Assembly: GCA_963971405.1 (NCBI GenBank)
Contig: OZ020484.1
Coordinates: 25,854,001 to 25,918,000, forward strand
Reading direction: 5' to 3'
Origin: Psococerastis gibbosa
Lineage: Eukaryota; Arthropoda; Insecta; Psocodea; Psocidae
Length of the DNA stretch: 64,000 nucleotides
A program made the translations under genes and the position numbers. The notes under the pieces are model-generated. The model had not been told where the DNA came from. It did not search any database and was given only the letters and a program-made list of their open reading frames with translations. Every line of letters begins with the position of its first letter. Position 1 is the first letter of the stretch. Shown here piece by piece: positions 15,170 through 61,929 of the stretch.

Positions 15170-15566
15170 TTAGGCGCGGTTTCCACCGACCGGCTAGGGC
15201 TAAATACAAAAACGGTGACGTGGTAGCAGACATTCAAGACTTAGGCGGGGTTTCCACCGACCTCACATTGCAGAATGCAAATGACATTGACGGAAATTAG
15301 AATTTTTCTTTTTATAGAAATCTATTAAAATGTTTGTACTTAACATATCCCATGACGCCATTTTTTAATTTTAGTTTGTTTGTGATTTTACTGTATGATC
15401 ATTGATCAATTTTAACTATGGCATAGAGGAAAACAAACATTTCCGTCTATGTCATTTGCATTCTGCAATGCGAGGTCGGTGGAAGCCCCACCTAAGTCTT
15501 GAATGTCTGCTACCACGTCACCGTATTTGTTTTTAGCCCTAGCCGGTTGGTGGAAACCCCGCCTTA
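15170..15566. mobile_element. Outer MITE of a nested pair
   Basis: Without its insertion this is a near-perfect palindrome. The left arm (15173-15240) reads GGCGCGGTTTCCACCGACC then GGCTAGGGCTAAATACAAA and GACGTGGTAGCAGACATTC. The right arm (15496-15563) is its inverse. Both sides are bordered by TTA (15170-15172 and 15564-15566), a plausible 3-bp target duplication. This fits PIF/Harbinger-like or TA-targeting elements, which I cannot distinguish here. It has no coding capacity. Confidence 0.82.
15241..15495. mobile_element. Inner MITE inserted at the outer MITE's centre
   Basis: About 249 bp with ~58-bp inverted ends: left GGCGGGGTTTCCACCGACC then TCACATTGCAGAATGCAAAT; the right end is its inverse with a few changes. 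It starts at 15244 and ends at 15492. The flanks read GACTTA before and TAAGTC after, so the empty site was probably the palindrome GACTTAAGTC at the exact centre of the outer element, cut at TA. The outermost GGCG.GGTTTCCACCGACC is shared with the outer element, so both may use the same transposase. Confidence 0.82.
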
Positions 15567-18005: not shown

Positions 18006-18996
18006 TACTACCCGACCACGATAGGATGACATTCCCATTCGGAATACTTTGTTTCCGGAACTTGCATAAGCGGAGCACCCGAGTTTATTCCTTTTTGCTT
18101 TCCAATTTATACGTAGTATAAGGAAAGCTTTGTGACGGTCGAAATTTTCGATTCTGAGATTTCAACGGATTTACACGTTTTGAGGTCCCAGGAACCCAAA
18201 AAAGTGATTTTTACGAAATGTCTGTCTATCTGTCTGTCTGTGCGTCGATTTCCGGGCAAACTACTCGGTCGATCTTGATGAAATTCGGCATGTAGGTTCA
18301 CAAAAATCATACCTCGGAACCATTTGTTTTATTTGGGGCTAACTTAATTGGGGGGGGGGGGGTTATTCTCAAAAAACTCTAAAAAAACGTCAAAAAAATT
18401 ATTTCTCAAAAACGGCTCCAACGATTTCTTTTAAATTCACACACATTGTAGTCGTTATTAATATTAACGAAATGCGTGGGGTCGCTTGACCCTTGAAGGG
18501 TTGCTTCTGGGGGTAAAAAAATGAAAATAACTAAATTTTAATGAAAAATGACTAAAAAATAATTTTTCTGCGAAACCTTTCTATCGATGATTTCTACCTT
18601 CAGGCATGTTTTAGGTGTTAAATTGAGTAACGAAACCGGACAGGTTGCTTTCCCAAAAAAGTATTTGGTTTTGTAAAAAAAAATGTTTTTTTGAAAAAAA
18701 TATAGAAAATTCACGCTCAAATGCATTGCGTGCCCTGCCAGTATTGCTGTGTGGTAATGTGTTGGTCTGACCTATCTAGAATTTACCTCACCTCCAGTGA
18801 CGTCAGGTGGACAACCCCCCTCCCCCCCCCCCCCGAGATATCGGAAATTTATCCATAGGAAAATTATTTACCATGAAATTACTCATTTTCTCTATCTAAT
18901 AATTTTGATAAATTGGAAAGCATGTTCGAGTAAACTCGGACCGGTTCTTTTTTAAGTTTTCCAAATCTCATCCTATCGTGGTTGGGTAGCAATATG
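18004..18996. mobile_element. ACTACCCGACC MITE split by an insertion
   Basis: The left half (18004-18094) has CTACCCGACCACGATAGGAT GACATT and runs to CACCCGAGTTTATTC. The right half (about 18950-18996) has TTCCAAATCTCATCCTATCG TGGTTGGGTAG. Together they match the intact 127-bp copy at 34673-34799. The ~855-bp element between them entered just after GAGTTTATTC. Confidence 0.65.
18095..18949 (+). mobile_element. E850 repeat element, full copy
   Basis: About 855 bp with the same ends as 32932-33780 (inverse) and 60627-61476. The left end is a 32-bp hairpin: GCTTTCC, AATTTATACGTAGTATAA, GGAAAGC. The right end is AATTGGAAAGC then ATGTTCGAGTAAACTCGGAC CGGTTCTT. Inside are a CTGTCTGTCTGTCTGTG stretch, a G-run (~18351) and a C-run (~18818). 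There are no coding frames. The phrase running from CCCAGGAACC through the CTGTCTGT run is common in arthropod genomes. The class is unknown: terminal hairpin and sharp ends suggest a non-autonomous DNA element. Confidence 0.75.
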
Positions 18997-29175: not shown

Positions 29176-29285
29176 TAAGGCTGCGATTCCACAGACGTCG
29201 TTTTTCATTGTGCATGTGCATGACGTGGTAGCAGACATCATTAATAAGTCCCTGCCATATTTTAAGGAGACTATAAATGTAGATA

Positions 29286-30990
29286 CTGTTCGCCCAGAAA
29301 AGTTTGCAAATGTCCATGAAAATATCCCTTAATGCTTTACCAAGTCGAGGTCAAGCCCCGCCTCTCCATGGAAATTCCCTATGCTGCATTTTCAAATCAG
29401 ATAGAACTACTTTGCATGTGTTTGTATACACAAAACTTACGGGGGTTCCATTCCAAATTTAATGCATTAAGGTCACAAGTGGACATTGCTTATTTTTTTA
29501 GCTAAAATTGTCGATCTGTTGCACTTTTTACGAATTCACGACTCCAATGTCAAAATTAAAATTAAAATTTTCTGAATGTTAGTTAATTGTCTTCAACTAC
29601 TGTAGGAACGTTAGTGGAACGGTTTTAGGATCATCATAGAACAAAATCAAAGCAATTTTTATTGTTATAAATATTATTAGTGGTGCGTTTCTTGAATTTG
29701 AGAAATTTGAGAAATTTTCATGTTACCATACTGTGTTATAAAATAGATCAACTTGACAGTTAATATCGAAGTTAAGGGCATTCAGACCACAGAAAAGGAA
29801 GCAGGCCTAGTAAGAGGAAGCAACTGATGCAACATTTCCGCATGAACCGTTTGGTAAGGCAAGCAAATTCACTAGGAGGCATGAATGATGATCTTAAACC
29901 TTTGCGAAGAACTATTTAAGGAAGTTGAAAGTTATATTTAAGATATTTATTATATATATACAGAGTCTAGGAGTCCGTCGAGGTATAAAATCAACAAAAA
30001 TATAAAGGAAAGAAGACGTCAAAAATACTACAATAATCTCGACAAATGTGATGAAAGTATGATAAGGAACCCCATAATTATGTATATTCATCCTAAGATG
30101 ATTGCTGACTGTTAAGCTTGGACACCCTGCGACAAGAAAATATATTAGAGCTTGATGGTCGTTACCAGCAAATGCCCAAGGAGAGCCTCAACGTATTTAT
30201 CACAAGGCGTCTTCATTTCAGGTAAAATAAAAAACACAACCAGTCGGTTGAGGAGACTATTATAAATAAACGCATCAGAAGTGCAGCAGAAACAAAGAAG
30301 TCACAATTTAAATGCTGTGCAGATTTAAGATGTTTGACAAGATTCAACGTCTTGGTCGAGTCGCCACGCACGCTTTCTTGGCGTTATAGGTATTTACAAG
30401 GAATCCGAAACGCCAGGTCTGAAGGAAATCGCATTGTATACCTTGACGAGACCCTTATTGGTGTGATACACAGAAACTCTATTCTGTGGCCTGAACGCTC
30501 TTAAGTTAACTTTCTACTTTCAAGTTGATCCATTTTATAACACAGTATGGTAATATGCAAATTTTAAAAATTTCTCAAATTCAAGAAACGCATCACTAAT
30601 AATATTTATAACAATAAATATTGCTTTGATTTTGTTCTATGATGATCCTAAAACCGTTCCACTAACGTTCCTACAGTAGTTGAAGACAATTAACTAACAT
30701 TCAGAAAATTTTAATTTTAATTTTGACATTGGAGTCGTGAATTCGTAAAAAGTGCAACAGATCGACAATTTTAGCTAAAAAAATAAGCAATGTCCACTTG
30801 TGACCTTAATGCATTAAATTTGGAATGGAACCCCCGTAAGTTTTGTGTATACAAACGCATGCAAAGTAGTTCTATCTGATTTGAAAATGCAGCATAGGGA
30901 ATTTCCATGGAGAGGCGGGGCTTGTCCCCGACTTGGTAAAGCATTAAGGGATATTTTCATGGACATTTGCAAACTTTTCTGGGCGAACAG
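29286..30990 (+). mobile_element. Tc1/mariner-type element with 471-bp terminal inverted repeats
   Basis: A 1705-bp element flanked by TA (29284-29285, 30991-30992). Ends are CTGTTCGCCCAGAAAAGTTT GCAAATGTCCATG and its inverse. The inverted repeats run 29286-29756 and 30520-30990, 471 bp each, highly similar. The 763-bp middle holds a decayed transposase frame at 30226-30504. TA duplication, TIRs and the YLDET motif place it in the IS630-Tc1-mariner superfamily. Such long TIRs are at the high end for the group. The element looks defective, as only the first part of the catalytic domain remains. Confidence 0.88.
30226..30504 (+). pseudogene. Tc1/mariner transposase remnant
   Basis: An open plus frame of 93 codons after a TAA at 30223. 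Near its end it reads SWRYRYLQGIRNARSEG then NRIVYLDETLIGVIHRNSIL and stops at 30502-30504. Family knowledge: W+.+YL..I+..R.EGR.I.Y.DET is the region around the first catalytic aspartate of DDE/DDD transposases in this superfamily. The second and third catalytic acidic residues are not present, because the right TIR starts 15 bp after the stop. The N-terminal DNA-binding part is not readable between 29757 and 30222, where stops interrupt all frames. Non-functional. Confidence 0.8.
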
Positions 30991-31107
30991 TACTTAACTT
31001 ATCTTTTCTAAATTAAGTTATAATATGGTAGAGACTTATTAATGATGTCTGTTACCACGTCATGCACATGCACAATGAAAAACGACGTCGGTGGAATAGC
31101 CGCCTTA

Positions 31108-32900: not shown

Positions 32901-32931
32901 GTCGAAACAAACAATAGGTACAAGAACCGGT

Positions 32932-33780
32932 CCGAGTTTAGTCGAACATGCTTTCCAATTTTTCAAAATTATTAGATAGAGAAAATGAGTAATTTCATGG
33001 TAAATAATTTTCCTATGGATAAATTTCCGATATCTCGGGGGGGGGGGGGAGTTGTCCACCTGACGACACTGGAGGTGAGGTAAATTCGAGATAGGTCAGA
33101 CCAACACATTAACACACAGCAATACTGGCAGGGCACGCAATGCATTTGAGCGTGAATTTTCTATCATTTTTTCAAAAAAACATTTTTTTTTTACAAAACC
33201 AAATGCTTTTCTGGGAAAGCAACCTATCCAGTTTCGTTACTCAATTTAACACCTAAAACATGCCTGAAGGTAGAAATCATCGATAGAAAGGTATCGCAGA
33301 AAAATTATTTCTTAGTCATTTTTCATTAAAATTTAGTTATTTTTATTTTTTTACCCCCAGAAGCAACCTATCAATGGGCAAGCGACCCCACGCATTTCGT
33401 TAACTTTAATAACGACTACAATACATGTGAATTTAAAAGAAATCGTTGGAGCCGTTTTTGAGAAATAATGTTTTTAGACGTTTTTTGGAGTTTTTTGAGA
33501 ATAAAAACCCCCCCCAAAATTAAGTTAGCCCCAAATAAAAAAAATTGTTTCGAGGTATTATTTTTGCAAACCTACATGCAAAATTTCATCAAAATCGACC
33601 GAGTAGTTTGCCCGGAAATCGACGCACAGACAGACAGACAGAGCGACTGACAGACATTTCGTAAAAACCACTTTTTTGGGTTCCTGGGACCTCAAAACGT
33701 GTAAATCCGTTGAAATTTCGGAATCGAAAATTTCGACCATCACAAAGCTTTCCTTATACTACGTATAAATTGGAAAGCAA
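32932..33780 (-). mobile_element. E850 repeat element, full copy
   Basis: 849 bp, inverse of the 18.1-kb copy with the same two ends: AAGAACCGGTCCGAGTTTAG TCGAACATGCTTTCC on the left and ACGTATAAATTGGAAAGCAA on the right. G-run at 33038-33050 and C-run near 33510 sit at the same relative positions as in the other full copies. No frames. Confidence 0.8.
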
Positions 33781-33789
33781 TAATAACTG

Positions 33790-39100: not shown

Positions 39101-39314
39101 TTAGGCGACGTCCTTTTTTAATGTGAATGTGCATGACGTGGTAGCAGACATCATTAATAAGTCTCTGCCATATTTTAAGGAGACTATAATGTAGATACTT
39201 AACTTGTCTATTATAAATTAAGTTATAATATGGTAGAGACTTATAAATGATGTTTGCTACCAGCACGTCATGCACATTCACATTGAAAAACGACGCCAGT
39301 GGAATAGCCGCCTT
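39101..39314. mobile_element. MITE of the GACGTGGTAGCAGACAT family, uninterrupted
   Basis: 214 bp. The arms carry CATGACGTGGTAGCAGACAT CATTAATAAGTCTCTGCCAT and its inverse; the centre reads ATACTTAACTTGTCTATTAT AAATTAAGTTATAATATGG. The left end has lost ~12 bp (TTAGGC joined to GACGTCC) relative to the right end AACGACGCCAGTGGAATAGC CGCC. It is the empty-site reference for the 29.2-kb nest. Confidence 0.82.
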
Positions 39315-48726: not shown

Positions 48727-49111
48727 TTAAGAGTATACAGCCCGTAGGAAATTGGCAGCCCGAAATTGAATATTTTTTATTTAATTAACTAAGCATGTTA
48801 TTAAAGATTTGGCTCATCAAAGTTGTAGAAGACTACTTCATGCATAATATTATAAGATATTTTTAATTTTCGAAATTGTAGTTTTTTCAGAAAAATGTAA
48901 ATATTTTATAAACAATAACTTTTCACGTATTATCGATTTTATGAAAAAACTACAATTATGAAAACTAAAAATACTTTATTATATGATGCATGAAGTAGTC
49001 TTCTACAACTTTGATGAGCCAAATCGTTAATAACATGCTTAGTTAATTAAATAAAAAATAAAAAGTATTAAATTTCGGACTGCCACTTTCCTACGGGCAG
49101 TACACTCTTAA
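48727..49111. mobile_element. TTAA-flanked MITE with long inverted arms
   Basis: A 377-bp interior (48731-49107) between TTAA and TTAA. Ends GAGTATACAGCCCGTAGGAA A and its inverse; arms of ~170 bp (CTTCATGCATAATATTATAA versus its inverse) around a short centre. TTAA borders suggest piggyBac-type mobilisation, though TTAA could instead be part of the terminal repeat. No coding. Confidence 0.78.
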
Positions 49112-58890: not shown

Positions 58891-60626
58891 AATAATTATG
58901 CGTAGGGCAATTTCTTATACCACAACATTTATTTTATTTTAGGAATTTCCGTCCACCTATAGCAACCCTCCAAGTCCAAATTTAAAACTATAAAACATAG
59001 GTAGTTGCAGTCACGAATAAGCCAGGCGGCTCTATACCACCTCCTGAAAAATCGCCTCACTTCCAACACTGACGGAGCTGAGCCACTAAACCTTGGGTTC
59101 TGTGTTGACACTGCCCACTATATTACACGTACTGTCAGGCTTAAGTAAGTTACGATACTTTCTTCTATTTTTTTAGTTTCAAGGAACTGTTTTTCCCAAG
59201 TTCACAAACATAAAGTCGCCTTACATTCCAGTAGACTAAATTCCCTCCCGCCGATTATGTATCGCGAAAAGGGAGACTTTGGTACGTGTCCAGAATGGAC
59301 AAGTTATGAGGCAACCCCGATCAATTGACAGTATCACTCACACGAGCCATTCACATTCTATCCCTCTCCCAGGCATTCATTCACAAAAATTACTGGACCG
59401 AGGGCAATTTCCACGGCTTCTTCGTCCATTTTCCCGGCCCCCCAATGAGTCAAAGCCGCACGTGTTCCTACAGAATGATCGGTTCCCTTAAAAGGATTGC
59501 TGCGGGAGAAGTGTTTGAATATATCATTTGAAGTGAAGCCCACAGACATTTCAAGGAGGAAAATATAAATTTGTAAGTTTACGAACGACAGTTTGAGCTA
59601 CATTAGGATGGACGACGGTCATATTTTGACTTTCAGATTGAAAAAAAAGCCGCATCCCTGATCAAAATCCGTTTGGTCCATGCAAACAGGCTTACTCACC
59701 CCTCCCCTCCCCCGGGCAATAGAATAATAATATATTTTCTCTTAGTCTGCACATCGCATAAAATAACCCCCCCCCCCCTCGTTCGGTTTTCAAAAAGGCT
59801 TATTGAAACCAAATAGAATTTTTTATAAAATTAAAAAAAAAAAAAAACTAAGTGAAGCGAAGGCAGAATAAAGCTGCCAATACCACTACGGCTATTACAT
59901 TTTTTTTTTTTTAGGAATTTTCAAAGGAAGAGGAATTTTCAATTATATTTGGACATTGGTATGCTTAGGAGTAAGGCAATTCTTTTAGACTGATTGCATT
60001 ATCTTCTTCTATCTTACCCTCTCGTCCTTCTTAAATTAAGTTATGGAAAAAGGGTTTGTCGAAGAATTCAAAACAAGAAAATAGAGGGGATTTACAATAC
60101 GATACAAATAACGATTTAACTCATTCTTGTGCTGTGTAATGTTAGTATGTTGACTTTGCAAGAGGTATTGATAGCTCGTAAATATATTATGGCTCCTATA
60201 TATTCTATGTATACGTCAAAATATAAACCAAATAACTAATAGAGAACATAAGACCGCCTGTGTGGTCGGCTCCCCAAATAAAAAGAGTTGATGAACCAAC
60301 CATGAAATCCCCATAGAACAAGCAACGTTACAGGGTTTTAGGGTTTCAATCAGAATTGACATTGTATTTGTGTTGCCAATTTAAATGTTGGTCGTAAAAT
60401 GTTAGCTGAAGATTAGATTTAGTTTAAGATCCTTGGAAGAGAGATGCGTCGTTTATTTCCTAATGGCTGCAGAGAACCTAAGAGGCGCTGTGACATTCAT
60501 TACAGAGTCCTTGCTTTTATCATACAGTAGTGGGTCTGTGGACCTGGGCGAACTTCGTATTTCCAACTCCCCCGTTCTGTTTGTTAAATTTTTTATTTGT
60601 TACCTAAACGCTCACTGCCAAAATTA
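58891..60626. other. No gene recognised
   Basis: C-run at 59767-59779 and A-run at 59832. Overlapping frames at 59279-59549 lack motifs. Confidence 0.4.
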
Positions 60627-61476
60627 TTGCTTTCCAATTTATACGTAGTATAAGGAAAGCCTTGTGATGGTCGAAATTTCCGATTCCGAGATTTCAACGG
60701 ATTTACACGTTTTGAGGTCCCAGGAACCCAAAAAAGTGGTTTTTACAAAATGTCTGTCTGTCGGTCTGTCTGTCTGTTCGTCGATTTCCGGGCAAACTAC
60801 TCAGTGGATTTGAGTGAAATTTGGCATGTAGGTTCACAAAAATCATACCTCGGGACCATTTTTTTTTTTTTTTGGGCTAACTCAATTTGGGGGGTTTTTA
60901 TTTTCAAAAAACTCCAAAAAAACGTCTAAAAAAATTATTTCTCAAAAACGGCTCCAACGATTTCTTTTAAATTCTCGTAGATTGTAGTCGTTATTAATGT
61001 TGACAAAATGCGGGGGGTCGCTTGCCCCTTGATAGTTTGCTTCTGGGGGTAAAAAAATAAAAATAACTAAAATTTAATGAAAAAATGACTAAAAAATGCG
61101 AAACCTTTCTATCGATGATTTCTACCTTCAAGCATGTTTTAGGTGTTAAATTGAGTAACGAAACCGGATAGGTTGCTTTCCCAAAAAAATATTTGGTTTT
61201 GCCCAAAAAATTATTTTTTGAAAAAAATGATAGAAAATTCGCGCTCAAATGCATTGCATGCCCTGCCATTATTGCTGTGTGGTAATTAATGTGTTTGTTT
61301 GACCTATCGAGAATTTACCTCACTTCCAGTGACGTCAGGTGGACAACCCCCCCCCCCCCCCGAGATATCGGAAATTTAACCATAGGAAAAATATTTGCCA
61401 TAAAATTACTAATTTCCTCTATCTAATAATTTTGATAAATTGGAAAGCATGTTCGAGTGAACTCGGACCGGTTCTT
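60627..61476 (+). mobile_element. E850 repeat element, full copy
   Basis: 850 bp in the orientation of the 18.1-kb copy and very similar along its length, including the terminal hairpin TTTCCAATTTATACGTAGTA and the right end GAACTCGGACCGGTTCTT. The C-run (~61350) is kept, while the first homopolymer is a T-run with GGGG. No frames. Confidence 0.8.
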
Positions 61477-61929
61477 TTAATTTAATTTCATACGTAGACT
61501 TACGTATTTATGTATTAAGTATTTATGCAGGCGGTTGGTTTCGGTATCGAACACAAAAAAAACTGGGGCCATTTAAAAATTAAAGTTTTCTGGAGTCACA
61601 TGAATTTTTTGCTTAAAAAAAAAAACTGTCTTTAGAACAAACGCTCGCCACGGAAGAAAACTAAAATTTCGCTTCGCCAGCTAGGTAAGACCTCCATATG
61701 TAATAATATTAACCAATGCAGGCTGTTATTCTGACAAATAAGTTCACTGTATTAAACACATAGGTTTCATTGATAGTTTGACATTTCCTCCGAAGAACCT
61801 CTTCACCGAATTAAACCAAAATGTGCATAACCTGGCACTGTTTGAGGCATAGCACCAGAGGCGGACACAGCGACCGGCACTGAGGGCAATTGCCCCCCCC
61901 CCCTTTGGCCAGCAGTTATTTTCTTTGCC
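61477..61929. other. No gene recognised
   Basis: A-runs at 61553 and 61614, C-run at 61893. Confidence 0.4.

Follow-up and report, generated by a model that had tools for sequence, protein, structure and literature searches.

A non-autonomous TA-site transposon family with long inverted repeats, seen through an insertion in an abundant MITE of Psococerastis gibbosa

In a stretch of the genome of the insect Psococerastis gibbosa, a short palindromic repeat is split by a much longer sequence with extensive inverted arms, which raises the question of what this insert is and how it came to lie there. The stretch, hereafter the window, comprises 64,000 nucleotides (C1:25854001-25918000, contig OZ020484.1) of a 409-Mb assembly with 68 contigs (GCA_963971405.1). 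We regard it as very probable that the insert is an internal-deletion derivative of the IS630-Tc1-mariner group, with arms of about 485 bp, that was mobilised in trans into the central TA of an older palindromic MITE and duplicated this TA. The anatomy of the element, the 2-bp duplication at two empty sites, the ends common to its family and the family-wide deletion are all directly observed. By the proposed mechanism, an autonomous relative would supply the transposase in trans, and this enzyme would bind the element ends and then excise the element through the cut-and-paste chemistry established for the group. The element would then integrate at the TA in the centre of the MITE, duplicating the TA.

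Table 1. Features of the interrupted MITE, its insert and the empty-site reference (window positions)
Feature	Position	Strand	Remarks
Left half of interrupted host MITE	29179..29283	+	GGC... end; TAA at 29176-29178 outside
Left TA of target-site duplication	29284..29285	.	one TA in uninterrupted MITE copies
Non-autonomous TA-site transposon	29286..30990	+ (sense of transposase remnants)	1,705 bp; family consensus 1,723 bp
Left terminal inverted repeat	29286..29797	.	family consensus about 485 bp
Remnant of transposase start	29743..29904	+	ATG at consensus 458, ATA at 29743 in window copy
Remnant of transposase middle	30118..30222	+	LDTLRQ...FITRRLHFR; ends CAG/GTAA
Remnant around first catalytic D	30325..30498	+	remaining catalytic domain absent
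Right terminal inverted repeat	30479..30990	.	
Right TA of target-site duplication	30991..30992	.	
Right half of interrupted host MITE	30993..31104	+	...GCC end; TTA at 31105-31107 outside
Uninterrupted host-MITE relative, empty-site reference	39107..39314	+	

The first-pass annotation of this locus described a precise 1705-bp insertion between duplicated TA bases, located within a MITE whose empty site can be read, and both points are confirmed (Table 1). The insert begins with CTGTTCGCCC... and ends with ...GGGCGAACAG. The uninterrupted relative elsewhere in the window carries a single TA and reads GTAGATACTTAAC across the junction, as does another MITE copy in the genome (L057) that has a separate deletion in its left half. 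The two arms of the insert are identical at 489 of 512 positions without gaps (95.5%; E = 0 when aligned by BLAST), with 11 of the 23 mismatches falling in the first 471 bp. The first-pass annotation gave an arm length of 471 bp, and arms of about 0.5 kb are confirmed; those of the family measure about 485 bp. A 7-bp deletion in the left arm of the window copy, at consensus position 470, probably explains the earlier value. Overall, 28 substitutions and five indels separate the window copy from the family consensus.

The host MITE has outer arms of 90 bp that are 92% complementary (29176-29265 and 31018-31107). Its uninterrupted central 17-mer, ATGTAGATACTTAACTT, yields 4,356 string matches genome-wide (2,169 + 2,187), compared to none for the reversed control. 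Given this abundance and the copies with one TA, the empty site most likely represents how this very abundant MITE normally looks. The MITE appears PIF/Harbinger-like in its GGC-type ends, short palindrome and high copy number, and TTA lies on both sides of one copy only, L057. In a genome search with the MITE, the best 40 of 1,708 candidates were scored. The insertion in the window is younger than the MITE that it interrupts.

The insert belongs to a large family. Its terminal 30 bp match the genome 644 times (313 + 331) when up to three mismatches are allowed, with no matches for the control, and the positions of 100 of these 644 termini were listed. A search with the arm gave 881 candidates, of which the best 40 were scored; a relative with an intact transposase, which the first-pass annotation had proposed to look for, was not found among the scored copies. 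A consensus of 1,723 bp was built from 23 of 30 loci, each with one full-length alignment, and its arms agree up to position 485 apart from two mismatches (175 and 479). These 23 copies differ from the consensus by 0.87-2.2%, and 22 of them have TA at both ends. For 41 distinct full-length copies with a single alignment, pairwise divergence averages 3.06% (1.65-5.55) and the arms within one copy differ by 2.3%; divergence is biased low because the loci were taken from the best-scoring matches.

TA flanks are general but not universal. Ends that agreed in their outer 40 bp were merged and those with less than 60 bp outside were dropped, which left 137 distinct ends; TA lies directly outside 131 of these, compared to a TA frequency of 8.1% in the window. 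The other six ends (L053, L036, L010, L047, L070 and L065) lack TA, which qualifies the outcome of the check on copies without TA duplication that the first-pass annotation had named. The flanks also show a preference for A at -5, C or T at -4, and A or G at -3. The four bases TATA are found outside only 20 of the 137 ends. Once identical flanks are merged, identity rises above 70% in only one of 9,316 flank pairs, and the flanks are otherwise unrelated.

A longer subfamily, represented by L046, L047 and L065, carries 205 bp of additional sequence at about consensus position 956 and is older. In the search for this subfamily the best 40 of 154 candidates were scored. All six frames of the additional stretch were translated for L046, L047 and L065, and L070-L077 were compared by alignment only.

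A second empty site was found for the family copy at locus L062, whose flanks are found again at C3:10.517 Mb (L089) with no element between them. In L089, positions 34-258 correspond to the left flank (98.7%) and positions 257-351 to the right flank (97.9%), such that the two matches overlap by exactly 2 bp, and these are TA. Either L089 was never occupied, or the element left it again and no footprint remained. Together with the empty site of the window MITE, this establishes that the duplication is exactly TA in two cases.

The L062 locus also revealed a setting in which homology continues beyond the element ends, an outcome that the first-pass annotation would have counted against its boundaries. 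Eleven places, L062 included, match the L062 element at 99-100% among the best 40 of 663 candidates, and in the same 11 places the 1,061-bp right flank of L062 is preserved at 99-100% (best 40 of 1,974 candidates). The ten places besides L062 lie on contigs C2, C3, C12, C13, C14, C15 and C19, and 6 of the 11 are less than 1.5 Mb from a contig end. A young burst of transposition was rejected for these places since the right flank was duplicated along with the element. The shared flank instead indicates a larger duplicated unit of at least 2.8 kb in which the element is a passenger. Because the right flank was duplicated with the element, and because the L062 flanks exist at L089 without it, the element ends stand. 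Part of the right flank (195-558) is a dispersed repeat in its own right.

The centre of the element retains only part of a transposase, as the first-pass annotation had stated: the start, the middle and the region of the first catalytic D. Within the window copy, residues 26-63 of the 63-residue start query match at 29791-29904, and the sequence RIVYLDET is encoded at 30430-30453. In the consensus, the start piece (MDQLES...) opens inside the arm, and the start, middle (ending LHFR) and RIVYLDET pieces all have one orientation before the frame stops in the right arm. Catalytic sequence beyond the first D is absent from the 23-copy consensus and from every copy read. Searches of Pfam with the transposase pieces, and of NCBIfam with the catalytic piece, gave no match. 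The CAG/GTAA that closes the middle piece is perhaps a former 5' splice site. In the older copies the extra 205 bp follow this point, and one further locus (L088) has a longer start frame. Judging from these sequences, the parent gene would have contained an intron at CAG/GTAA. All copies read are non-autonomous deletion derivatives.

Several searches were directed at an autonomous partner. Using the catalytic piece, no autonomous copy was present in the best 150 of 348 candidates, where the longest open frame was 129 amino acids and belonged to a normal copy (L069). Likewise, the start piece revealed no autonomous copy in the best 150 of 424 candidates; the longest frame, of 144 amino acids, is that of L088, which was read and is not intact. 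A search with the DDE_3 family (best 150 of 656) yielded, at L078-L082, only short chance matches to the family. A generic C-terminal probe gave nine matches among 33 candidates, and these are Sailor-like transposase fragments. The best of them, which reads as a transposase in two pieces (L083 and L086), was rejected as the partner because it shows none of the family ends. Only weak matches to these ends were seen, with 3-4 mismatches in 14, and a script search of the locus found no exact inverted repeat of at least 13 bp except A/T runs. The longer Sailor-like protein of L083 likewise lacks a Pfam, NCBIfam or PDB match, and BLASTP of two joined pieces against it gave E = 0.20.

Other candidates were set aside on reading. 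A 5,145-bp pair of ends (L087; C2:31305400-31310800) that might have been a long autonomous copy is interrupted by what appears to be an LTR retrotransposon. L067 abuts a sequence that has the look of a pogo-like element, and a palindromic repeat in L065 is also present in L023, L031 and L033. Among the end pairs longer than 2 kb in the 100 listed termini, L087 is the one that was read through. A less-deleted copy is possible at the long pairs outside this reading, namely C2:42592551-42595220, C3:24213581-24215701 and C3:6351616-6358569. In the first of these, a 2,670-bp pair, the distance from the start piece to the catalytic piece is about 960 bp above the usual value; the locus either acquired a later insertion or is deleted to a lesser extent.

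Two other histories could in principle account for the insert and its relatives. The insert might be the degraded remains of an autonomous Tc1/mariner copy, a lone relic rather than a member of a non-autonomous family, and the stop-broken transposase pieces and altered start codon of the window copy fit this idea. Nonetheless, we consider it extremely unlikely, given that the same 1.7-kb deletion structure is common to the 41 distinct full-length copies, which are about 3% apart, so the deletion predates amplification. Nor did all copies arise by one large duplication, which is contradicted by the single similar pair among the 9,316 flank pairs. It is also very unlikely, if slightly less so, that the family spread mainly as a passenger of larger duplications and not by transposition. 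Such spread did occur in the 11 places where the element and its 1,061-bp right flank travelled together, six of them near contig ends. Beyond these places, however, the scored copies match the L062 element at 97% or less, their flanks are unrelated and TA flanks are general. Among scored copies, passenger spread is therefore limited to the 11-place set. A trans-mobilised, non-autonomous family accordingly remains our preferred reading, and the question becomes which kind of transposase served it.

The first-pass annotation assigned the element to Tc1/mariner, which is safe in the wide sense of the IS630-Tc1-mariner group. The TA target duplication of the group is present at both empty sites and at 131 of 137 ends. 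Inverted repeats are present as well, and of the transposase gene that they bracket in the group, with its HTH and DDE/D domains, only the start, the middle and the first D remain. The D-to-E spacing, DD34-41E/D for Tc1/mariner in the narrow sense and DD78-111E for Sailor, falls in the region that is missing from the 23-copy consensus and from every copy read. The context of the first D is given as I/VVYLDET for Sailor (DD82E) and VLWSDES for Tc1/mariner (PMC8533490). The IVYLDET of the family, which was noticed before the published consensus was met, equals the former and is unlike the latter, so 'Tc1/mariner' can be used with safety in no narrower sense. We therefore use the name IS630-Tc1-mariner group, an assignment that would follow from the TA target and the IVYLDET motif. 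That the partner belongs to the Sailor superfamily proper is possible but doubtful. The motif favours it, as do the further Sailor-like transposase fragments recovered with the C-terminal probe. According to the same source, however, most Sailor members duplicate TATA, and their terminal inverted repeats, which range from 18 to 1,362 bp, usually start with GT or CC (PMC8533490). By contrast, the duplication at both empty sites of the family is the 2-bp TA, TATA is uncommon outside its ends, the ends start with CT, and the best Sailor-like fragment lacks the family ends. Sailor has been reported in 206 invertebrate species, as stated there (PMC8533490). Less likely still is an undescribed IS630-Tc1-mariner lineage as the source, one that would bridge Sailor and Tc1/mariner by combining the IVYLDET context with a TA target of 2 bp, a probable intron and arms that run past the start codon. 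Because the inverted repeats extend past the transposase start codon, both ends of the element carry the 5' region of the gene.

Long arms are not exceptional for this superfamily, and the contrary claim in the first-pass annotation is not supported. Tc3 of C. elegans, an autonomous nematode element with a Tc1-type transposase and a TA target, probably has terminal inverted repeats of about 462 bp. Nested insertions are likewise ordinary, as are non-autonomous derivatives present in high copy number. The terminal inverted repeats of Minos and Frog Prince are given as 254 and 214 bp (PMC2874221), and those of Sailor reach the length given above. Also close are the LTIR-like elements of aphids, which are described as Tc1/mariner elements (DD40-41D) with inverted repeats of about 460 bp, a TA duplication and internal-deletion or MITE derivatives (PMC5490172). 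Compared on that description, both families combine long arms (about 485 and about 460 bp), TA and deletion derivatives. The aphid elements are also related to rosa and maT, with D as the final catalytic residue (PMC5490172), and the region that would correspond to these features is missing from our family.

Because two independent empty sites define where the elements of a high-copy family end and which target they use, this case can serve both repeat annotation and the relative dating of insertions. An autonomous partner that proved to be Sailor-like and yet used TA would have a bearing on the origin of the TATA preference of Sailor.

Additional repeats were noticed during this work. A repeat of about 850 bp occurs three times in the window, at 18092-18949, 32919-33784 (inverted relative to the others) and 60623-61479. 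Further palindromic stretches lie at 48771-49060 (133-bp arms) and 15172-15564 (126-bp arms). Copies of the DDE_3 transposase family (e.g. L079) often carry TAG stops only, perhaps because they derive from one defective ancestor. A DDE_3 match on a small contig (L082; C62, 178.5 kb) lies in sequence that reads as bacterial, with insertion-sequence-like transposases, and is perhaps from an endosymbiont or a contaminant in the assembly. Finally, the DDE_3 search led to a locus (L061) that reads by eye as a Ty3/gypsy-type pol, with dozens of equal-scoring places that have open frames of 1,129 amino acids, which suggests a very young LTR retrotransposon family.
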